From assembly GCA_902632055.1 (NCBI GenBank), contig CACPAS010000011.1, forward strand, positions 1-38,323: a stretch of DNA of 38,323 nucleotides, written 5' to 3'. How positions within the stretch are numbered: the stretch's first letter is position 1; each line of letters begins with the position of its first letter. The stretch comes from an uncultured OCS116 cluster bacterium (lineage in GTDB: Bacteria; Pseudomonadota; Alphaproteobacteria; Rhizobiales; TMED25). The notes below the pieces were generated by a model that was not told the origin of the DNA, made no database searches, and saw nothing but the letters and a program-made list of their open reading frames with translations. This document shows positions 18,289-37,705 of the stretch, piece after piece. The position numbers were made by a program, and so were the translations under genes.

Positions 18289-19545
18289 ATGGCAAACTTA
18301 AACAAGAAAAAATTTAAATCAGAATTTTTGCAAACTCTTATGGAAAGGGGTTTCATTCACCAAACCTCCAATGATGATGCCCTTGATCATCATTTACATA
18401 CAGAAAATGGGTTGGGATATATTGGATTTGATCTAACAGCAAAGAGTTTACACGTTGGTTCAATGATTCAAATTATGCTTTTAAAGTGGATGCAAGTTTT
18501 TGAACACAAGCCTATCATTCTTTTTGGGGGCGGAACAACATTAATTGGAGATCCCTCAGGAAAAGATGAAACTAGAAAAATAATCGAGGAGAATGATATT
18601 CGCCAAAACGAGACGGGAATTTTAAACGTATTTAAAAGATTTCTCAATCTTGACGAAAGTAAACTAATTATTGAAAATAACGTAGAATGGTTGAGAGATC
18701 TAAACTATATTTCTTTCCTAAGAGATTATGGAAAACATTTTACAATCAACAGAATGCTAACATTCGACTCTGTAAAATTAAGATTAGATAGGGAACAGCC
18801 ACTTACATTCTTGGAATTTAATTATATGCTATTTCAAGCATATGACTATCTTGAGTTGTTCAAAAGGCATGGTTGTAGAATACAAATGGGGGGCTCAGAT
18901 CAATGGGGAAACATTATAAACGGTATAGAGCTCATCAGACGAACCTCTAAGAATGAGGTATTTGCATTAACTACCCCTCTAATTACAACTGCCTCAGGCG
19001 GGAAAATGGGAAAAACAGCAGATGGCGCAATTTGGCTAGATGAAGACCTCACAAATCCATATGATTTTTGGCAATTTTGGAGGAATACCGATGATAAGGA
19101 CGTAGTCAGATTTTTAAAACTTTTTACTGATATCCCAATGGTAGAAATAAATAAATTATCAAAACTTGAGGGCGAAGAGATTAACGAAGCTAAAAAAATT
19201 CTTGCAAACGAACTCACCAAAAATACACATGGTGAGGAGGTGTCGAAGAAGATTTATAATTCTGCCTTGGAGACCTTTGAAAAGAGGTTAATATCAGAAA
19301 ATCTCCCAGTCAAAGTGTTAAATTCTAGCAATTTTTCTCAAGGCTATGGGCTATTATCCGTTTTGGTTGAGGTAGGGTTTGCAAATTCAAACAGTGATGC
19401 AAGAAAATCTATACAAAATGGTGCAATAAGGCTGAATGACGTAAATATTGACGATCCATCCATGACTCTTTCAAGTGAAGAAATTAATGGCTCAAAACTA
19501 TCCTTTGGTAAGAAAAAACATTTGCTTTTAAGAGTGAGTAATTAA
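18289..19545 (+). CDS. tyrS: Tyrosyl-tRNA synthetase
   Basis: YIGFDLTAKSLHVG, GGSDQWGNIINGIELIRR, KMGKTADGAIWL (KMSKS-like), C-terminal S4 domain. Confidence 0.95.
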   Translation: MANLNKKKFKSEFLQTLMERGFIHQTSNDDALDHHLHTENGLGYIGFDLTAKSLHVGSMIQIMLLKWMQVFEHKPIILFGGGTTLIGDPSGKDETRKIIEENDIRQNETGILNVFKRFLNLDESKLIIENNVEWLRDLNYISFLRDYGKHFTINRMLTFDSVKLRLDREQPLTFLEFNYMLFQAYDYLELFKRHGCRIQMGGSDQWGNIINGIELIRRTSKNEVFALTTPLITTASGGKMGKTADGAIWLDEDLTNPYDFWQFWRNTDDKDVVRFLKLFTDIPMVEINKLSKLEGEEINEAKKILANELTKNTHGEEVSKKIYNSALETFEKRLISENLPVKVLNSSNFSQGYGLLSVLVEVGFANSNSDARKSIQNGAIRLNDVNIDDPSMTLSSEEINGSKLSFGKKKHLLLRVSN

Positions 19546-22500
19546 TCATAATCAAAAGCGTCCCTGAGTATACCGGGGGCCAATAGTCCTGTAGTATTTC
19601 TTCTAAGAAGAGTTGGCTCACCCCATGACTCCCTTAGGATCTGGAATGGAAGCGAAAACATACAATTATTATCGCCGCCTGTTAGAACTGGTCCAAATAT
19701 TGGTATGGTGCCGAATGAAGCATTCAATTCATATTCTGGGCAATAAGTGCCGGGTAATTTTAAGCTGCCTGTCTCATTATTTAATTGACCACTTAGTTCA
19801 AACTTTACATTTTGACCAAAAAGCTCTGCTCCGTCAATAAGAAGGGTTTCATCAATAATTCTATATCTTGCTCTGGAGTCAAATTGTACCCTATTGATAT
19901 CAATTAATTCGCTTGGGCTAGACTCCACAAATAATCTGGCCAAGTACTTATCATTATATACATCTATGTTTTCGATAAATATCTCCCCACTCATATTGTT
20001 GATATTTGGACCGGTTGCTCGTAATTGTAAATTGCCATTGAAACCGTTCTGATACAAACCTAAAAAACCCAAAAAAGCACCAGCATCTCCAGTATTTACT
20101 CCCAAATCAGCCGGCAGATCCTCTTCTTGTAAGGTATATTTAACTTCGATTCTCTTATTAGTATCCTGATTAAAAAAACCGTCTAACTGCATCCTATTAA
20201 GTTTTTTATTTTGTACAAAAATTTCTCCTGAAAGTAATGAAATATCTCTATTATTACCTGTAACTTTATCAACGTTTAATATGCTCAAGCGCATATTTGG
20301 TAGATTTCTTAATATATTCTGATCGTCTCTGTCTCGAGAAAATAAATTCTGTCGGATAAAGGCTGATAGATCAGCTTCTTTTGCTATTATTTCAGCTATT
20401 AAAATATTATTTTCAACACTACCAATAATTTGAGCATCAGAAATATCATCTGAAGATAGGTTTAATACTTCAAAATCAACAAGGTCCCAATTATTTGTTA
20501 TCGAGTTAAAAGCCCTCCTTAGCTCTAATTCAAAAACGATATTCTCAGCATCATACTCAATTTTGTATTTTGCAATACCTTCATCAGTTGGCTTATCAAC
20601 TATAAATCGAACTTCAGCCCTTTCATTGGTCTGCTTTGCATTTCTAAAAAATGGGTAAAGGATGCTTACATTTGTTAAATCACTTTCAATGCTAACATTA
20701 TCAAAAGAGTTTATATCTAAACTATCTATATCTGACAGTGGTAGTACAATGTTTACCTCTGTTGGAATTCTACCTAACCCTGAAATATAATTTGCTAATG
20801 CTGGCTGAAGTATGCTCAATTCAGTTGGACTGGGCTGCGCCTCAATTGCTATCTCCAATTTAGGGTCGGATGACGAGATGTCTGCAAGGATATCAAATTT
20901 GGATTGTATACCACTAATATTAAATTCGCCAGAAGAGCTTATCTTTGAGTCTTCAATCTTAAATACAGCAAGCGGGGAAATAAAAACATTTTCATTGTCA
21001 AGTCGAAATGAAAATTGTTCAACTTCAATGCCAGCCTTTAAATCCACACCAAAACTAGGTCCCACAACTGTTGGAAATTCAACAGATGAAGAGATTTTTG
21101 CATTCCCTGAGATCCTTGACTCGACTGATTTAAGCTTTTCATCGTCAATACCCAGGTAGCTAAGATAATCAACGCAAACATCAAGTTTGCATTCGGCATT
21201 TATATTAAATGTTGCCGTGCTTTGTCCATCCATATTTTTAATTTCACCTGATGTTTGTGTTATTTTTGCAGAGCCTCTTGCGAGCTGTAAATTCCCCCCA
21301 TAAATTTCAGTTAAAATTTTATCATCATTGAATGTTATTAGCCCATTACCCTCTGTGATTTTGGGGTGATTTTTATAATATAAGAATTCAGATTCTTTAA
21401 ATTCGATCCGCATATTCACCGATGAACTTCCCTCCTTATCAGTCTTCCTGTTGAGGGATAATTCATCAATAGAGCCTGAAAATACGTTTTCGTTAAACCA
21501 ATTTGTAATCTTATTTGCGTTTACGAAAGAAAATAACTCTTTAACATTCTCAACATTTGAATTTTCGATAATTACTTTTGTTTCTTTGTGATTTGCTAGC
21601 TCCTCCTCTTTTATATTTATTTTGCCCTGTATCAGTTCGCCATCAAGTTCCCTAAAATGTATTTCATTGTTAACAAGATCAATATTCATAATAATATTTG
21701 CGTTGCTGAGTATTTTTTGCTCACCCTTGGAAAGGCTAAGGCCAGACATATGTGCATCAAGAGAGGATATTAATCCATTCCCGTCGTAATTTAATTCAAT
21801 GACCCCTGTCGTATTTAAGCTAAAGTCATCATGTTTTATTTGTATCTCATTAATATCTATCTGTTCATCTGAGCTTTTGTAAGAAACACTAAAATATGCA
21901 TCCTCAATGTTGTGAATATCACTCTTTGAGTATGGTAGATCGATATCAAAACTACCAACACCAATATTCAAATCCAATGTTGAGTCAATAACCCTTCCCA
22001 ATTTATTGAAATTAAGGTTTAGTCGACCAGACAGATTTCCATCATAAATATTCGCATATGACCTCAAGCCAAAGCCATCAAATGACTGATCTAAGTTCAT
22101 ATTCTTAAATATTATATCTGCATTTGTAATTCCACTGGTAGTATTATGATCCAATGCAATTTCAATATTTTGAGAATTCTCAGAAGAACCCGCGATATGT
22201 GTAAATTTCAATTTTCTTGAGTCATTAATTAGTTCCGAACTGAGAGTGATGCCATTAAGTGTGAAAATCTGCTCAGACGCTGTAACTGAAATAGATCCAT
22301 TATCTAAACTCAAGGTATTGGCCGCATTGCTATCAGCATAAGGACTTTGCAGAGCACTATTTATGGCACTCAATAAATTTTGATAGAAATGGTGAGATGT
22401 TACCGCTTGATTGCCAAATTCTATTGTATCAATATAAGTGGCTTGGCTTTGATCACTGATTAAGTTTTTATCAATTATATTCGTTCGCAGATCCTGAAGA

Positions 22501-22922
22501 AGAATATCCAAGTTTAAATCAATCATGGGGTCAAAAATTTTTATATCGTTATACTCTCTCTCACTAAATAAGCCAGATATTGGTCCCAGAATTGAACTTA
22601 TAACTCCATTCCTGAACTCTGTTTTTGCAGCATTCATTGTTATTCCATTTTGATTGCTGTTCACTTGCATCTCCTTCAATAATAGCAAAATTTCTTGATT
22701 TTCAGATTTCATAAGGATAATTTTCTCAAAATCAAATTTGAGCCCTGAGTAATTTTGGTTTAGGTAATTTCGGACGTGAGAATTTATAAATGTAACGTCA
22801 AGTATTCCAGATTCTAGTCTGCTGTCCAACCATGACTTAAAAATAAAAAAACCTGATATTAGAATTACGAGCACGAAGCCTACGAAATAGGATAGGTATT
22901 TAAAAAATGGTCTTAACTTCAT
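19542..22922 (-). CDS. Large AsmA-like/DUF3971-type envelope protein
   Basis: 1126 aa, one N-terminal TM (FLKYLSYFVGFVLVILISGFFIF), long beta-rich body, C-terminal AsmA_2-like LFVESSPSELIDINRVQFDSRARYRIIDETLLIDGAELFGQNVKFELSGQL. Confidence 0.75.
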   Translation of the reverse strand: MKLRPFFKYLSYFVGFVLVILISGFFIFKSWLDSRLESGILDVTFINSHVRNYLNQNYSGLKFDFEKIILMKSENQEILLLLKEMQVNSNQNGITMNAAKTEFRNGVISSILGPISGLFSEREYNDIKIFDPMIDLNLDILLQDLRTNIIDKNLISDQSQATYIDTIEFGNQAVTSHHFYQNLLSAINSALQSPYADSNAANTLSLDNGSISVTASEQIFTLNGITLSSELINDSRKLKFTHIAGSSENSQNIEIALDHNTTSGITNADIIFKNMNLDQSFDGFGLRSYANIYDGNLSGRLNLNFNKLGRVIDSTLDLNIGVGSFDIDLPYSKSDIHNIEDAYFSVSYKSSDEQIDINEIQIKHDDFSLNTTGVIELNYDGNGLISSLDAHMSGLSLSKGEQKILSNANIIMNIDLVNNEIHFRELDGELIQGKINIKEEELANHKETKVIIENSNVENVKELFSFVNANKITNWFNENVFSGSIDELSLNRKTDKEGSSSVNMRIEFKESEFLYYKNHPKITEGNGLITFNDDKILTEIYGGNLQLARGSAKITQTSGEIKNMDGQSTATFNINAECKLDVCVDYLSYLGIDDEKLKSVESRISGNAKISSSVEFPTVVGPSFGVDLKAGIEVEQFSFRLDNENVFISPLAVFKIEDSKISSSGEFNISGIQSKFDILADISSSDPKLEIAIEAQPSPTELSILQPALANYISGLGRIPTEVNIVLPLSDIDSLDINSFDNVSIESDLTNVSILYPFFRNAKQTNERAEVRFIVDKPTDEGIAKYKIEYDAENIVFELELRRAFNSITNNWDLVDFEVLNLSSDDISDAQIIGSVENNILIAEIIAKEADLSAFIRQNLFSRDRDDQNILRNLPNMRLSILNVDKVTGNNRDISLLSGEIFVQNKKLNRMQLDGFFNQDTNKRIEVKYTLQEEDLPADLGVNTGDAGAFLGFLGLYQNGFNGNLQLRATGPNINNMSGEIFIENIDVYNDKYLARLFVESSPSELIDINRVQFDSRARYRIIDETLLIDGAELFGQNVKFELSGQLNNETGSLKLPGTYCPEYELNASFGTIPIFGPVLTGGDNNCMFSLPFQILRESWGEPTLLRRNTTGLLAPGILRDAFDYD

Positions 22923-23074: not shown

Positions 23075-23536
23075 ATGATAAATGAAGGCGATAATGCAAT
23101 AGACTTTGAAATGCCAATTGACGAAAAAAATTTTATAACACTTAAATCATTTCCTGATAATAATATTGTTTTATATTTTTATCCGAAAGATGACACACCG
23201 GGATGCACGAAAGAGGCAATTGATTTTACCGCCCATATAGATGCTTTCAATAAATGCAAAACCACAATCATAGGCGTTTCAGCCGACTCGACAACCAAGC
23301 ACAAAAAGTTCATTGAAAAACACAAACTTGAAGTCATTCTGGCATCTGACGAAGATAAAAAGGTTTGTGAGAAATATGGCGTATGGATTGAAAAAAGTAT
23401 GTATGGTAAGAAATTTATGGGTATTGAGAGGGCTACTATATTAATTGATAAGGATAGAAAAATTAGAAAAATTTGGCGTAAAGTAAGTGTTCCAGGACAT
23501 GTCCAAGAAGTTTTAGAGGCAGTACAAAAAATCTAA
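23075..23536 (+). CDS. bcp: Thioredoxin-dependent peroxiredoxin (Bcp/PrxQ)
   Basis: LYFYPKDDTPGCTKEAIDFTAH active-site motif; GVSADSTTKHKKFIEKHKL. Confidence 0.93.
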   Translation: MINEGDNAIDFEMPIDEKNFITLKSFPDNNIVLYFYPKDDTPGCTKEAIDFTAHIDAFNKCKTTIIGVSADSTTKHKKFIEKHKLEVILASDEDKKVCEKYGVWIEKSMYGKKFMGIERATILIDKDRKIRKIWRKVSVPGHVQEVLEAVQKI

Positions 23537-24634
23537 TCTATGCTTAATCCTGTCAAAGCTGACTCAAGAAAATTATCGATATCTCCATCCAAAATTGCGT
23601 CGGGATTAGAGCTTTCAAGTTTAGTCCTAAGATCTTTTACTTGACGATAAGGGTGTAATACGTACGAGCGTATCTGGTGCCCCCATCCAATATCGGACTT
23701 TTCCGTATTTGCTATATTTGCGGCCTCTTCTCGTGCCTTGATTTCACTCTCATAGATTTTTGCGCGCAACATATTCCATGCGGTTTCTTTATTTCTATGT
23801 TGCGATCTTTCATTTTGGCATTGAACAACGATCCCTGTTGGTATGTGAGTAATACGCACAGCGCTATCTGTAGTATTTACGTGCTGACCCCCTGCCCCAC
23901 TTGCGCGATAAGTATCAATCCTTACATCTGTTTCAGATATATTTATGTCAATTTTATCATCAATTATTGGATAAATACTGACTGAAGCAAAACTTGTATG
24001 TCGTCTGGAATTCGAGTCGAAGGGGGATATTCGAACTAATCTGTGTACACCGTTTTCTTGTTTGAGCCAACCGTGTGCAAATTTTCCACTGATGGAGATT
24101 ATAACACTTTTTATGCCTGCCTCATCTCCCTCATGCATGCTTATCTGGGTTGTTTTGTATCCCCTTTTTTCTGCCCATTTTAGGTACATTCGTAATAACA
24201 TACTCACCCAATCTTGGCTTTCAGTTCCGCCTGCCCCTGCGTGTATTTCTAGATAAGTATCATTGGAGTCAACTTCTCCTGAAAATAATGTTTCTAGATA
24301 TTTTGATTGGACTTTTTTTTGTATATTGAGGATATTTTTTAATGACTCTTCTAATAAATCCTGATCATTTTCATCTATTGCTAGTAGGTAAATTTCTACA
24401 GAGTCTGCGAAAGATGCCTTTAAATGCTCGTAACTACTTAATTGTAATTCAAGATTTTGTCTCTCTTGCATTACCTGCTTGGCATTTTCTGGATTATTCC
24501 AAAAATTTTCTTTCTCGATTAAAATATCTAATTCTTTTATCTTTTCTTGTGCGGATTCTAATTCAAAGACCCCTCCATGTCATTTTTAGTTTATTATCAA
24601 TATCTTGTGTTATTGTTTTAAAATCAAAATCCAT
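23533..24634 (-). CDS. prfB: Peptide chain release factor 2, expressed by +1 programmed frameshift
   Basis: GGQHVNTTDSAVRITHIPTGIVV identifies RF2. Upstream ORF from ATG 24634 (SD AGGAG): MDFDFKTITQDIDNKLKMTWRGL-TGA. +1 shift at CTT-TGA gives LELESAQEKIKELDILIEKENFWNNPENAKQVMQERQNLE..., joining the track ORF in frame. Confidence 0.93.
24562..24576 (-). promoter_or_regulatory. RF2 +1 programmed frameshift site
   Basis: GGAGG-GGT-CTT-TGA-A on the minus strand: SD-like GGAGG three nt upstream of CTT, then in-frame TGA at 24565-24563. Confidence 0.92.
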
Positions 24635-24646
24635 ACAATTATTCTC

Positions 24647-26521
24647 CTAAAAAAATTCCCAAACATAGTTATCTACATAATTAAACCTGTTGCCAGTATT
24701 TTTATTTATTTTTTGCACATTAATTTCATCAGGGATTAAAAAGTCACTCAACTGGGCCTGGTCTAATAAATCAAGAGAACCTAAAGCAACATCATCCATT
24801 ATAGATATTAAATGATCTTCGTTTTTTAAATTAACATTAGAAACAATTGCAAAAAAAGCAACATTTCCTGTAAACCTTAAATAAAATAACTTATTTCCGG
24901 CTTGGGCATAATAAACACAATTATTTGATCCCATATATTTACTATTTCTGCTTATTTCTACTTTATCTATATCACAAAGCAAACTTTTTATTTTAAAGGC
25001 AATTTCTCTCTCAAGATATTTTTCATTATTCCCGTCTTTATACAAATAGATTTGATTTCCATTCAGATCATCGATCTTATCTAAGTAACGCATTTTGGGC
25101 GATGATCCATCTGAGAGGATTGGCGTATATAGAGATATGATATTATCTAGGTTCAGCTCTATTTTTTCATCCCAAGTGATAGTTATCGCATCTTCTTGTA
25201 TTTTACCCATAAGATATTCTAATAAGTATGTGCTAGCGTCGCCACTTAAATTATCATCAAATAAAGTTGCCCCTGAAAGAAATAATTTTCGAACTGAGAC
25301 AAGACTTGTGCGAGTATCAGTGCCAGCAATTTCTGTCGAAAGCAGTTTACTATTTAGGTCTATTCCAGAATTTATAATGCCAGCATAATAAATAGGTCTT
25401 AATATTGATTTATCGTTTGTTCTGATTTTCATGATTTCTGAAACTGTCTGCTTATTTCGAATATCAACCAAAGTTCTTCCAGAAATTAGAGATATGACCC
25501 TAATATTGGCGTGAACCACTTCCTGATCCTCAATTTCCTCAAGTCTATTTATTCGATCACTCACATAGTCTGTTGCATCTTGATTTATGGTTAAGAAATA
25601 GGTGAGACCATAATCTCTAGCAATATTTTCATCAAAGTAAAGTTTGCTTTGAACCATGTCTTTAATACTTTTATCCAGAAGGTTTGGCTTAATATATGCA
25701 TTCCTGTCAACGTATTTAATCGGTGACTCTTGCATTATCTGGGATACCACGCCTGTTATCACATCGTTTTCTGCCATTCTTTCTAAAACCCAATCCCTTC
25801 GCTCTTTTACCGCTTCGTAGTTTTCCTGAGGATCGTAATTACTTGGAGCTTTTGGAAGCGCTGCCAGTAGAGCCATTTCTTCGATATCCAATTCATTCAG
25901 GGTTTTTTCAAAATACTTCTCTGATGCCGCAACAACTCCAAAAGCTCCCCGTCCTAAATATATTTCGTTCAGATATAACTCTAATATTTTTTCTTTTGAT
26001 AAAACTCTCTCTAATCTTATTGCTAGCATAATCTCTTTAATCTTTCGCCCAATAGTTCGTTCATTATCATTAAGTAAGTTCTTAATCAATTGTTGCGTGA
26101 TTGTTGAAGCTCCAATTAATCTACTATTATCCCTAAGAAATAGATGGTTATATATATTCTGTGAGGTTGCCCTTATAATACTCTTTAAATCAAATCCTGG
26201 ATGACTATAAAAGCTTTTGTCCTCAGCAGATATGAATGCAAGCTTCAAATATTCCGGTATATTGTTATGATCAACATAAATACGATGAACTTCATATTCT
26301 TCAGCAATTAATACCCCGTCCTCGGAAAAGAATCTGTTTGCACTTATTGGTTGTGTTTTTAAAATACGCTCAAAAGCATCAGTATCCTTCGTATAATAAA
26401 AATACATAAGAATTAGAACAGAAAAAAAAGTAACAGCAGCCATTACACATACACTGAAAAAAGCTGTTATAAATTTTAAGTACAATTTTATTTCCCCCAC
26501 ATGGTAAAATTTAATTTCCAA
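24647..26521 (-). CDS. mrcA: PBP1a-family protein: intact GT51 glycosyltransferase domain, degenerate transpeptidase domain
   Basis: N-terminal TM; GT51 motifs ISAEDKSFYSHPGFD, GASTITQQLIKNLL, RKIKEIMLAIRLE, ILELYLNEIYLGRGAFGV; C-terminal half aligns colinearly with PBP1a transpeptidase but lacks SxxK/SxN/KTG. Confidence 0.88.
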   Translation of the reverse strand: MEIKFYHVGEIKLYLKFITAFFSVCVMAAVTFFSVLILMYFYYTKDTDAFERILKTQPISANRFFSEDGVLIAEEYEVHRIYVDHNNIPEYLKLAFISAEDKSFYSHPGFDLKSIIRATSQNIYNHLFLRDNSRLIGASTITQQLIKNLLNDNERTIGRKIKEIMLAIRLERVLSKEKILELYLNEIYLGRGAFGVVAASEKYFEKTLNELDIEEMALLAALPKAPSNYDPQENYEAVKERRDWVLERMAENDVITGVVSQIMQESPIKYVDRNAYIKPNLLDKSIKDMVQSKLYFDENIARDYGLTYFLTINQDATDYVSDRINRLEEIEDQEVVHANIRVISLISGRTLVDIRNKQTVSEIMKIRTNDKSILRPIYYAGIINSGIDLNSKLLSTEIAGTDTRTSLVSVRKLFLSGATLFDDNLSGDASTYLLEYLMGKIQEDAITITWDEKIELNLDNIISLYTPILSDGSSPKMRYLDKIDDLNGNQIYLYKDGNNEKYLEREIAFKIKSLLCDIDKVEISRNSKYMGSNNCVYYAQAGNKLFYLRFTGNVAFFAIVSNVNLKNEDHLISIMDDVALGSLDLLDQAQLSDFLIPDEINVQKINKNTGNRFNYVDNYVWEFF

Positions 26522-26766
26522 TAAATCTTCTTGCTAAAATATCAAAATTATCAATATAATATCAATTATTATGTATTTTAGAATCATTAATACATCATTG
26601 TAAGAGAATTTATTATGATAGATATACACTCAAACAACCAAGAAAGAGCCCCATCGAGGTTCGGCTATATTTATCATAAAAACCCCATAAATTTAATAGC
26701 GCCATCAAGAAGAGCTAATGCGGCTAGATTGCAAATGATCAGCGCTACAATAAAAAGGAATAAAAG

Positions 26767-28842
26767 ATGCCAAATCGAATGCTCATCGATGCAAATCATG
26801 ATGAGGAAACTAGAGTCATTGTTCTTAATAAAGAAGGCAAAATCCAAGAATTTGATATTGAGGCAAAAGATCAAAATCAAATTCGGGGAAATATATACTT
26901 AGCAAAAGTCACAAGAGTTGAGCCTTCACTCCAAGCCGCTTTCGTTGAATATGGTGGGAATAGACATGGATTTCTTGCCTTTAATGAGATTCACCCAGAT
27001 TATTATCAAATACCAACTTCGGAGAGAAAAAAATTACTGGATGAAGAATCTGAATTGATATCCAAAAGTGATACGGCCGATGAAATTGATGAGCCTGCCT
27101 CTGATGAGGCTGAGGATATAGCTGAAGAAGAGATTGGTGAAGATATTGTCAATCATGATGAGTCAAAAAGAAATACGAAACATAGAAAACGCTATAAAAT
27201 ACAGGAAGTAATAAAAAAAAGACAAATCATACTTGTTCAAGTCACAAAGGAAGAGAGAGGCAATAAAGGTGCCGCGTTAACAACATATATCTCATTGGCA
27301 GGTCGCTATTGCGTATTAATGCCAAATACTGCAAGGGGCGGTGGAATATCACGAAAAATATCGGATATTAAAACAAGAAATAAAATTAAAGACTCAATAG
27401 GCTCACTCAAAATCCCAGAGGGGATGGGAGTCATTATAAGAACTGCAGGGGCTCAAAGGACAAAAACAGAAATTAAAAGAGATTTTGAATATCTGACTCG
27501 ATTATGGCAAACGATAAGAGATCTAACTTTGAATTCTTCAGCACCAGCGCTAATTTATGAAGAAGGTAGTTTAGTTAAAAGGTCAATCAGAGACCTTTAC
27601 AACAAAGATATTGAAGAAATTGTAATTTCAGGTGAGAGCGCATTTCTTGAGGCGAAAAACTTTATGAAAATGCTAATACCGAGCCATGTCAAATTTATAA
27701 AAAAATATATGGACGCTGTCCCCCTATTTATTAACTACAATGCAGAGTCAGAGCTCGATAATATGTTCCATGCAAATGTAAGGCTTCCGTCAGGTGGATA
27801 CCTTGTAATTAATCAAACGGAAGCGCTCGTGGCAATTGATGTAAACTCAGGAAGATCCACAAGAGAACACAATATTGAAGATACAGCACTGAGAACAAAT
27901 CTTGAGGCATCAGACGAGGTTGCCCGACAGTTAAGACTGAGGGATTTAGCTGGCCTTATTGTGATTGATTACATTGATATGGAAGAGCGAAGAAATAATA
28001 GGTCAGTCGAGAAACAATTAAAAGATGCGCTGCGAATGGACAGAGCAAGAATACAAGTGGGTCATATTAGTCAATTTGGTTTGATGGAGATGTCAAGGCA
28101 GAGAATGAGGTCTTCTTTATTGGAGTCTTCAATGACAAAATGTAATCATTGCAATGGGGTTGGTAGAGTAGGTTCAATTAGCTCTCAGTCAGTCCATATA
28201 ATCCGTGCCATAGAGCAAGACTTAATAAAGAATGGAAAAAATAACATCATATTAAACACAAATATTGAATTATCAAATTATTTGCTAAATGCAAAGAGAA
28301 AAAATTTATTCGAAATAGAAGATAGATATGGAATAATAATAGAAATAAAAGTTGCAGAAATAGATGGTGATGAAACATTTAAAATTGAAAGAAGTGAATT
28401 AAAAATAGATCCACAAATGAGTAACTCAGCCATAAGCATAGATAGTGTTTATGAAGATAACTTAGACTCAAAGACGGCCAATGATACAAAACCTGAGCAG
28501 GATAAAAGTGAAAAAAATGAAGGAAAATTAAAGAAGCCTGTAAGGAAAAAACCCAAGGAAAATGAGAAAAAAATAAAAACAACAACCAAGGATATAAATA
28601 AAAAAGATAAGTCCGAGAGCGGAGAAGAACCGAAAGTCTCTAAAGGCGGGGCAAGAAAAAGAAAAAAAATAAACACAGATAAGGCAGAAGTGAAAGAAAT
28701 TGTCGCCAGTGATACGAAGGAAAATAAGAAAAAAACCAAAACGAAGAGAGATGCCATTAAGAAAAAAACTTCCACAACGGCAAAACCACAAGATACTGTA
28801 AAACCAGTTGAAAATCCAAAAACAGGTTGGTGGGATGATTAA
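26767..28842 (+). CDS. rne: Ribonuclease E/G
   Basis: S1 domain with acidic insert, AIDVNSGRSTREHNIEDTALRTNLEA, Zn-link CNHC, Lys-rich C-terminal tail ending TGWWDD. Confidence 0.93.
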   Translation: MPNRMLIDANHDEETRVIVLNKEGKIQEFDIEAKDQNQIRGNIYLAKVTRVEPSLQAAFVEYGGNRHGFLAFNEIHPDYYQIPTSERKKLLDEESELISKSDTADEIDEPASDEAEDIAEEEIGEDIVNHDESKRNTKHRKRYKIQEVIKKRQIILVQVTKEERGNKGAALTTYISLAGRYCVLMPNTARGGGISRKISDIKTRNKIKDSIGSLKIPEGMGVIIRTAGAQRTKTEIKRDFEYLTRLWQTIRDLTLNSSAPALIYEEGSLVKRSIRDLYNKDIEEIVISGESAFLEAKNFMKMLIPSHVKFIKKYMDAVPLFINYNAESELDNMFHANVRLPSGGYLVINQTEALVAIDVNSGRSTREHNIEDTALRTNLEASDEVARQLRLRDLAGLIVIDYIDMEERRNNRSVEKQLKDALRMDRARIQVGHISQFGLMEMSRQRMRSSLLESSMTKCNHCNGVGRVGSISSQSVHIIRAIEQDLIKNGKNNIILNTNIELSNYLLNAKRKNLFEIEDRYGIIIEIKVAEIDGDETFKIERSELKIDPQMSNSAISIDSVYEDNLDSKTANDTKPEQDKSEKNEGKLKKPVRKKPKENEKKIKTTTKDINKKDKSESGEEPKVSKGGARKRKKINTDKAEVKEIVASDTKENKKKTKTKRDAIKKKTSTTAKPQDTVKPVENPKTGWWDD

Positions 28843-34093: not shown

Positions 34094-37000
34094 ATGAAAA
34101 TAGTAAGATGTTTCACAAAAGAAAATGAATCTCCATACACACAAATAGAATTTACAAAAACATCAAGTCAAATAAAGAATCCGGATGGTTCCATTGTATT
34201 CAAGCTTGACGATATAGAGATACCTAAAAGTTGGAGTCAAGTTGCCGCAGATATAATTGCACAAAAATATTTTCGAAGAGCCGGTGTGCCTCAGGCTCTC
34301 AAAAAAGTAGAGGAAAATGATGTACCCAGTTGGCTATGGAGAAGTGTTCCAGAATCAGATGATACTGAAATGGGCTCAGAAACAAGCTCTAAACAGGTAT
34401 TCGATAGGTTAGCCGGAACATGGACATATTGGGGATGGAAAGGTAATTATTTTGACTCTGAGATTGATGCGAAAAATTATTTTGATGAGCTCAGATTTAT
34501 TTTAGCGAGTCAAATGTGTGCGCCAAATAGCCCGCAATGGTTCAATACTGGTCTCCATTGGGCATATGGTATAGATGGACCCGGGCAAGGTCATCACTAT
34601 GTAGATTATGAAACAAAAAGATTAACCAAATCAACGTCAGCTTATGAGCACCCACAACCACATGCGTGCTTTATTCAATCAATACAGGATGATCTGGTTA
34701 ACGAAGGCGGTATTATGGATCTGTGGACAAGAGAGGCAAGACTTTTCAAATATGGGTCTGGTACCGGTTCAAACTTCTCAAAAATTAGAGGTGATGGAGA
34801 AGGGCTCTCAGGTGGAGGGAAATCGTCAGGATTGATGAGTTTTTTAAAAATTGGTGATAGGTCTGCTGGCGCAATTAAGTCAGGTGGGACAACAAGGCGG
34901 GCAGCAAAAATGGTTGTAGTTGATATCGACCATCCTGATGTTGAAGAATTCATTGATTGGAAAGTAAAGGAAGAAAAAAAAGTTGCCGCATTGGTAACGG
35001 GCTCAAAAATTTGCGCCAAACATCTAAATTTAATTCTCAAAGCTTGCGTTAATTGCGAAGGCTCTGCGAAAGACTGCTTTGATCCAAAAAAGAATCCGGC
35101 ACTAAAGAAAGAGATAATTAGTGCAAGAAAGTTGCAAGTACCAGAAAATTATATAAAAAGAGCAATACAATTCGCGGAGCAAGGTTATACCTCAATGGCT
35201 TTCGAAACCTACGACACTGACTGGGACTCCGAAGCGTATCTAACTGTGTCAGGCCAAAACTCTAATAATACTGTTCGCTTATCAGATGACTTCATCCACG
35301 CACTAAAGCGTGATGATGATTGGCACCTAAAATCGAGAAGAGACGGCTCTCCTGTAAAGACTACAAAAGCGAATGATCTCTGGGAACAAATTGGTTACGC
35401 AGCGTGGGCGTCAGCTGATCCGGGTCTTCAGTTCCACACAACAATAAATGACTGGCATACCTGCCCTGAAGGTGGAGAAATTCGTGCATCAAACCCGTGC
35501 TCAGAATATATGTTTCTTGATGACACAGCGTGTAATTTAGCCTCAATTAATCTAATCAAGTTTAGAAATAAAGACGGAAGCTTTAAAATCGACGAATTCA
35601 TTCACACCGTAAGATTATGGACGATGGTTCTTGAAATATCAGTTTTAATGGCTCAATTCCCATCAAAGAATATAGCAAAACTTTCATACGAATATCGTAC
35701 ATTGGGTCTTGGTTATGCAAATATCGGCGGCTATTTAATGACCAATGGTATCGCCTATGACTCTGATGAAGGACGCGCAATCTGCGGTGTTATAACAGCA
35801 TTAATGACAGGAATAGCCTATAGAACATCGGCTGAGATGGCTTCAGAGCTTGGCCCATTCCCTGATTACAAAAGAAATGCAAAACATATGCTTAGAGTAA
35901 TGTCAAACCACCGCAATGCGGCTCACGGCAATACAGATGGTTATGATGGGCTTTCAACAAATCCAGTCCCTCTGAATCATGATAATATTAAAGAGAAGGA
36001 TTTACTAGCGGCTGCAACAAAATCTTGGGATGACGCAGTTGAACTGGGTAAGAAGAATGGATACAGGAATGCCCAAACCACAGTAATCGCTCCAACCGGA
36101 ACTATTGGCTTGGTCATGGATTGCGATACAACAGGTATTGAACCTGATTTTGCCTTAGTTAAATTCAAAAAACTTGCAGGTGGTGGTTATTTTAAAATAA
36201 TCAACAGAGCGGTGCCAGAAGCCTTAAAAACACTTGGCTATGGAGATAATGCAATTAATAATATTGTGGACTACGCTGTCGGTCAAAACACTCTAAAAAA
36301 TGCTCCGGGAATTAATCACGAAAAATTAGAAAGTAAAGGCTTCCAAAAGAAACAACTTGATGCCATAGAAGAGCAGCTTGAAAATGCATTTGATATTAAG
36401 TTTGTATTTAATAAATGGACTTTAGGAGAAGATTTTTGCAAAGATGTACTTAACGTTAGCGCAGAACAGCTCGAGGATTTTTCTTTTGATCTCTTAGAGC
36501 ATCTTGGATTTAGCGAGCAAGATATACTTGATGCCAACATTTACTGCTGCGGCGCTATGACTGTTGAAGGGGCGCCAAGCTTAAAAGACGAGCATTTGAA
36601 TATTTTTGACTGTGCAAATCCATGCGGCAGGACAGGAAAACGTTCATTGTCAGTTGATAGCCATATTTTGATGCTATCAGTTGCCCAGCCATTTATATCC
36701 GGTGCAATATCTAAGACGATCAATATGCCAAATACAGCTTCGGTTGAAGACTGCAAGAATGCATACTTAAAGTCATGGGAGCTCGGCCTTAAAGCGAACG
36801 CACTTTATAGAGATGGTTCGAAGTTATCGCAACCATTAAACGCCCAGGTTCTGGACGAAGAAAATGATGATGATGAAACAATTTTAGAGCCAGCTGCAGA
36901 AAGAACGATTGATAAAATAATCGAAATAGCAGAGAGGACCGAAAGAGAAAAACTGCCCGATAGAAGAAAAGGCTACACACAAAAAGCAGTTGTTGGTGGC

Positions 37001-37705
37001 CATAAAGTTTATCTGAGAACTGGTGAATATGATGATGGCAGAATTGGTGAGATATTTATAGATATGCATAAGGAAGGAGCAGCATTCCGATCACTAATGA
37101 ATAATTTTGCGATAGCAATATCACTAGGATTACAATACGGTGTTCCGCTTGATGAGTATGTTGATAGCTTCACTTTCACAAGGTTTGAACCAGCGGGCCT
37201 AGTCCAAGGCAATGACACTATTAAAAATGCAACTTCTGTCCTTGATTATATATTTAGGGAGCTGGCGATCTCATACCTCGAAAGAAATGATTTAGCTCAC
37301 GTAGATCCAAGTACAATATCTCCTGATACTATAGGGAATGCTGAACTCGATCATCCGGCGCCTGCAACAAAATATATAAGCACAGGATACGGCAGAAGCA
37401 AAAATAATAATCTCTTTATCCTACCGTCTGCCGACTTACAGCTCACAGGAACAAACGATATGCTAACAGCAACCGCCTCTAATGTGAGTATGAGTAACGC
37501 AAGCATTTCGGAGAGCACCGAAGCACAACCAGCTCAAGCTAATCTTGACACTGAGAAAGAGCTTGAAAAGAGTGATCTAATCACACAAGCAAGAATAAAA
37601 GGCTACGAAGGTGTAGCCTGTGATGACTGCGGTAATTTCACAATGGTGAGAAATGGAACATGCCTTAAGTGTGATACCTGTGGCGCAACAAGTGGTTGCA
37701 GTTAA
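34094..37705 (+). CDS. nrdJ: Vitamin B12-dependent (class II) ribonucleoside-diphosphate reductase
   Basis: 1203 aa; [69 protein letters not shown]-terminal Cys-rich [27 protein letters not shown]. Confidence 0.95.

Follow-up and report, generated by a model that had tools for sequence, protein, structure and literature searches.

Class A penicillin-binding proteins (PBPs) are defined as bifunctional enzymes that both polymerise and crosslink glycan strands. One gene in a 38,323-nucleotide stretch of DNA from an uncultured OCS116 cluster bacterium (contig CACPAS010000011.1; hereafter, the window) raises the question of whether a PBP of this class has lost its crosslinking activity and, if so, what would crosslink the strands in its place. 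The gene and its neighbours are the following:

24647..26521, minus strand: PBP1a (mrcA) orthologue with an apparently dead transpeptidase half, 624 aa (open reading frame, PF00912, orthologues and synteny)
26390..26503, minus strand: N-terminal membrane helix, residues 7-44 (modelled by AlphaFold as one long helix; hydrophobic by reading)
23533..24471, minus strand: prfB, peptide chain release factor 2 (PF03462/PF00472), a syntenic marker conserved beside PBP1a
26767..28842, plus strand: rne, ribonuclease E (PF10150), a divergent syntenic marker

The gene order rne - PBP1a - prfB recurs at the PBP1a loci of the window's genus, of its sister genus and of many named Hyphomicrobiales, and we therefore consider the window gene to be a PBP1a orthologue. 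The order itself was placed through another of its genomes (G048), whose PBP1a (L032) is identical over 756 aligned residues to that of a Hyphomicrobiales MAG (L111). Its start codon is TTG; since the proteins of relatives begin at about residue 11-15, translation may in fact start a little further downstream. The gap between rne and PBP1a (26522-26766) measures about 0.25-0.5 kb in the family vs. roughly 3 kb in other Hyphomicrobiales. The window genome comprises 1.03 Mb in 42 contigs and is 77% complete. Elsewhere in the window, a 1126-aa open reading frame without a Pfam match (19542-22922, minus strand) resembles in size one found near prfB in the sister genus (1143 aa, L064:9598-13029), and 34094-37705 (plus strand) encodes a class II (B12-dependent) ribonucleotide reductase of 1203 aa, within a small reduced genome.

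The N-terminal half was readily assigned:

25775..26308, minus strand: GT51 glycosyltransferase domain, residues 72-249 (PF00912, E 2.9e-61)

A preliminary description of this DNA had stated that the GT51 half keeps its hallmarks, and both the PF00912 match and the motif residues agree. E100, R159, K160 and E163 were invariant when the protein was aligned with 32 intact PBP1a proteins, and E100 and E163 are presumably the catalytic Glu pair. In a structure match, the domain shared 47-48% identity with the glycosyltransferase domain of Aquifex PBP1a. The window protein thus has the GT51 domain of a class A PBP with its motifs, and this full motif conservation suggests that the half polymerises lipid II.

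The C-terminal half contained the following features:

24650..25660, minus strand: residues 288-624, a degenerate half derived from a transpeptidase and lacking the OB insert (hhalign; no PF00905 match)
25397..25408, minus strand: residues 372-375, SILR in place of SxxK (family and intact-PBP1a alignments, hhalign)
25286..25297, minus strand: SVRK, residues 409-412, corresponding to the structural STLR motif (family alignment)
25268..25276, minus strand: SGA at the SxN position, residues 416-418, Asn lost (reading of the family alignment)
24884..24919, minus strand: CVYYAQAGNKLF, residues 535-546, KTG-strand region, motif lost (hhalign, alignment and motif scan)
24650..24742, minus strand: conserved C-terminal tail FLIPDEINVQKINKNTGNRFNY...WEFF, residues 594-624 (matches the PBP1a tail VPxGIxLIxIN.KTG...EAF)

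PF00905 did not match the window protein at E 0.001, and when the C-terminal halves were searched in isolation the best E value was 0.15, from one of 10 genus halves. We compared a profile of the ten genus C-terminal halves with a profile of eight intact class A transpeptidases and two sister-genus proteins using hhalign, and obtained a match with a probability of 97.3% and an E value of 2.6e-11 over 281 columns, reaching the C-terminal tail. The best matches of the C-half profile in the PDB were class A PBPs, at E 0.14 or worse. The profile-profile match indicates that the C-terminal half descends from a transpeptidase and is not an unrelated domain, as an earlier alignment by eye had proposed.

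The SxxK position reads SILR, as first reported; both its Ser and the Pro that follows occupy invariant columns in the alignment with the 32 intact PBP1a proteins. We rejected SVRK (409-412) as the true active-site SxxK, because in the family alignment it falls on STLR, a class A motif that precedes SxN, and not on the nucleophile. The SxN motif had been described as absent; its Asn is indeed lost, but by the family alignment its Ser is kept as SGA, a placement that other alignments do not share, and the same position reads S-R/N-A/G in close relatives. Likewise, the loss of KTG stands, as K[ST]G occurs nowhere in the 624-aa protein, but its exact replacement by NKL does not: the strand has been replaced or deleted within CVYYAQAGNKLF. 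By the family alignment, the OB insert of 100-odd residues is absent throughout the window's genus, and the C-terminal extension after EFF is gone in the window protein. Two features of the class, a transpeptidase domain with SxxK, SxN and KTG and the OB (PCB_OB) insert of proteobacterial PBP1a, are therefore missing. The length of 624 aa, also remarked upon as short for PBP1a, proves little: in G586, also a small alphaproteobacterial genome, a class A PBP of 586 aa (L197) has SxxK, SSN and KTGT intact, so shortness alone is no sign of a dead transpeptidase.

The claim that the domain has kept its fold fared less clearly. AlphaFold2, given the 32 intact homologues as alignment, produced a model with a mean pLDDT of 73.6, in which the core transpeptidase strands and helices were predicted around residues 337-385 and 458-585 and the SxN lobe (residues 391-453) was poorly predicted. 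The Foldseek matches to this model covered the full length of class A PBPs (E 1.2e-26 for S. aureus PBP2) and also included isolated transpeptidase constructs at E about 1e-11. Because the alignment supplied to AlphaFold2 held intact transpeptidases, this support is partly circular; a single-sequence model of the C-terminal half reached a pLDDT of 31. A transpeptidase-like core is thus predicted, but the OB insert and C-terminal extension are gone and the SxN lobe is poor.

To place the lost motifs in context, we collected 14 genomes of the family, 12 of which carry the gene (10 from the window genus and two from the sister genus). The active-site motif set was broken in all 12. Each of the 10 genus genomes encodes an uninterrupted reading frame of 604-655 aa lacking the active site. 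At SxxK, the window clade has SILR, two relatives have SILK, and one relative each has DLLR and NILK; the Lys is thus retained in three of the ten (SILK in two and NILK in one), and its loss is not universal. KTG was never present, and its loss and that of the SxN Asn are universal across the genus. The sister-genus proteins are full-length, at 770 and 774 aa, and are still recognised by PF00905 (E 3.5e-19 and 4.4e-23) and, weakly, by the OB model PF17092; they carry SIIQ or SMLQ at SxxK and KRG or KGG at KTG, with SSN kept. Complete genes from other alphaproteobacteria, used as controls, kept SxxK, SxN and KTG; apparent exceptions came from reading frames wrongly picked or from genes truncated at contig ends or by runs of N.

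These comparisons bear on two rival explanations. A sequencing or assembly error, or a lesion confined to one strain, has nothing that we found in its favour, and the same uninterrupted architecture, with synteny kept, recurs in 10 genus genomes. Since the loss is fixed across the genus and the full-length domain of the sister genus is likewise dead, we exclude this explanation and regard its chances as negligible. Alternatively, the domain might be an active transpeptidase with a non-canonical site, in which Ser372 is assisted by Arg375 or a different base. In its favour, the window clade retains Ser372 and two relatives read SILK; but KTG is lost in every member, the SxN Asn is lost in the genus, the Ser itself is replaced in two relatives (DLLR and NILK), and the Lys has become Gln in the full-length sister form. 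We consider a non-canonical active site highly improbable.

No instance of the same degenerate domain was found outside the family in 398 genomes of the order and 385 of the class. Those weak matches outside the family that we read (L192-L198) have KTG and, in most cases, SxxK, one of them (L198) being a 273-aa frame only. In a tree of the glycosyltransferase domain, the genus was monophyletic (0.996); support for genus plus sister genus was only 0.38, and they grouped with other AT-rich alphaproteobacteria. Some genus members retain the SxxK Lys and the sister genus has Gln there, so that inactivation may have occurred once or twice. The sister-genus form suggests an intermediate, and hence a stepwise loss.

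What, then, has become of the C-terminal half? We estimated dN/dS by the Nei-Gojobori method and obtained values of 0.24-0.37 for close pairs and 0.15-0.27 for distant pairs, in which synonymous sites are near saturation, compared with 0.04-0.13 for the glycosyltransferase half (0.05-0.13 in close pairs only). Among intact PBP1a pairs with a glycosyltransferase identity of 0.86-0.92, transpeptidase identity was 0.85 (sd 0.05, n=11), whereas the genus C-halves are 0.56-0.65 identical at similar glycosyltransferase identity. Taken together, the rates and identities show that the C-half is relaxed but still constrained; it is evolving fast and is under purifying selection. Across genus members only 26-29% identical, 35 columns are invariant, including part of the tail and two Cys residues:

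24974..24976, minus strand: Cys516, genus-invariant, absent at that place in intact homologues (alignment)
24917..24919, minus strand: Cys535, genus-invariant, possible disulfide partner of Cys516 (alignment; pairing by inference)

The conservation of both residues suggests that Cys516 and Cys535 may form a periplasmic disulfide.

Two fates of the domain, both of them forms of a glycosyltransferase-only PBP1a, can be weighed against these data. The half may simply be decaying: selection on it would have relaxed as the genome shrank, leaving a remnant that has no function beyond holding the glycosyltransferase domain or protein stability and is heading towards a single-domain enzyme like MtgA. 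Its low identity relative to intact pairs, the loss of the OB insert and C-terminal tail and the sister-genus intermediate would all fit such decay. On the other hand, dN/dS is well under 1 (0.15-0.37), no frameshift or stop interrupts the gene in 10 genomes, and the 35 invariant columns persist; we give plain decay a real but minority chance. The same purifying selection, together with the invariant Cys pair, the conserved tail and the predicted transpeptidase-like core, speaks for a domain repurposed as a docking or regulatory module, for instance for a YcbB-type enzyme or the divisome, and stabilised by the new disulfide. Its partner is only putative, though, the fold support is partly circular, and the single-sequence pLDDT is low, so that we hold repurposing to be not quite an even bet.

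We then asked which other cell-wall enzymes these genomes encode. Near-complete genus genomes contain one each of GT51, PF00905, SEDS, S11 carboxypeptidase and YkuD proteins; the sister genus has two YkuD proteins. In the window genome, the PF00905 protein is FtsI, located in the dcw cluster with STFK, SSN and KTG intact, and the SEDS protein is FtsW, inside the same cluster. FtsI is the sole remaining PF00905 protein in near-complete genus genomes. Profile searches of the family genomes found no RodA, PBP2 or MreB, as in Rhizobiales-type elongation without a Rod complex; the only matches to the MreB model were frames of 589-641 aa and 435-452 aa, which we read as DnaK and FtsA, the latter also from its position beside the dcw cluster. 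An Amidase_2 gene adjoins the dcw cluster (L073:4212-4949), and no Amidase_3 gene was found in any of the 14 family genomes.

A YkuD protein was present in 13 of the 14 genomes. This L,D-transpeptidase is of the YcbB type (E 2.6e-53 for the one compared in full), with the catalytic motif SSGCVR in four. A DacA-type D,D-carboxypeptidase was present in 11 of the 14; its motifs are intact, as SLTK, SAN and KTG. The window genome, at 77% completeness, yielded neither the YcbB-type enzyme nor DacA, and this part of the inventory comes from relatives that are 90-99% complete. We also considered compensation by a second class A PBP. Only one genome (G009) has an additional intact one, of 816 aa (GT51/PF00905), on a separate 15-kb contig (L069, G009:C1:1-8000); as that assembly has 7% contamination, the extra PBP is probably foreign, and we rejected it as a compensating enzyme.

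The explanation that we favour, and regard as very probable, is that a Hyphomicrobiales PBP1a orthologue has become a glycosyltransferase-only enzyme, with the YcbB-type enzyme doing most of the crosslinking of its strands and FtsI acting at division. The loss of transpeptidase chemistry is well supported by the motifs, whereas the crosslinking partners are inferred from the inventory and from precedent in E. coli. With GT51 intact and the transpeptidase motifs broken family-wide, the original proposal of a de facto monofunctional glycan polymerase remains the best reading: by descent the protein is a class A PBP1a without the transpeptidase part of that definition, and it would work like a monofunctional glycosyltransferase. 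In this mechanism, the GT51 half would polymerise lipid II into glycan strands, and in a family without RodA, PBP2 and MreB it would be the only polymerase besides FtsW. The C-terminal half would be a former D,D-transpeptidase, bereft of its Ser-Lys, Ser-Asn and Lys-Thr-Gly set and kept as a shortened domain whose role is probably structural or regulatory. As this crosslinking half appears catalytically dead, crosslinking would be left to the few other enzymes in the genome. DacA would make tetrapeptides, with which the single YcbB-type L,D-transpeptidase would crosslink the PBP1a strands, and FtsI would crosslink at division. Crosslinking had been assigned earlier to other PBPs or L,D-transpeptidases in general, and the inventory narrows the candidates to one FtsI and one YcbB-type enzyme. 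Alternatively, FtsI alone could provide 4-3 crosslinks everywhere. A bolder proposal, which we advance tentatively and think rather unlikely, is that family-wide the pseudo-transpeptidase serves the YcbB-type enzyme as a docking or regulatory module, that elongation yields only 3-3 crosslinks, and that FtsI is the last classical penicillin-sensitive crosslinker.

We found no clear precedent for a natural transpeptidase-dead class A PBP in the literature searched, which covered few subscription journals. MtgA resembles the family protein in having GT51 without a working transpeptidase. However, MtgA consists of GT51 alone, whereas the family protein keeps about 330 residues of a transpeptidase-derived domain, identified as homologous by hhalign. 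By descent, the protein belongs with PBP1a (MrcA) of Hyphomicrobiales such as Agrobacterium, the polar-growth synthase that is essential for polar growth in the absence of RodA or PBP2 (PMC8546619), in an organism where L,D-crosslinking is also essential (PMC11527210). The two share the synteny with rne and prfB, GT51 similarity and the lack of RodA, PBP2 and MreB. In contrast to the Agrobacterium protein, the family PBP1a has lost the transpeptidase site, OB insert and tail, and it is the only class A PBP, vs. four in Agrobacterium. PBP1 of Clostridioides difficile is likewise a class A PBP serving as a main polymerase beside L,D-transpeptidases, but its transpeptidase activity is present and needed for growth, in an organism whose L,D-transpeptidases are essential (PMC12539705), which is a caution.

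The functional precedent is an engineered one. In E. coli, crosslinking by YcbB needs the glycosyltransferase of PBP1b and DacA but not the PBP1b transpeptidase, so that the S510A variant works, and when the D,D-transpeptidases are blocked, PBP1b glycosyltransferase activity, YcbB and DacA suffice (PMC5089857). The family likewise combines a glycosyltransferase lacking transpeptidase function with a YcbB-type enzyme and DacA in one cell, both of the latter having been found in relatives. The differences are that here the condition is natural and fixed, that it concerns PBP1a, that FtsI is also present, and that the functional coupling is putative. A family-wide and apparently stepwise loss of the transpeptidase in PBP1a, the polar-growth synthase of the order, would mean that polymerisation and crosslinking have been separated in evolution. 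The YcbB bypass engineered in E. coli may have a natural equivalent in these genome-reduced relatives of rhizobia, which would also put to the test whether L,D-crosslinking together with FtsI can sustain growth.
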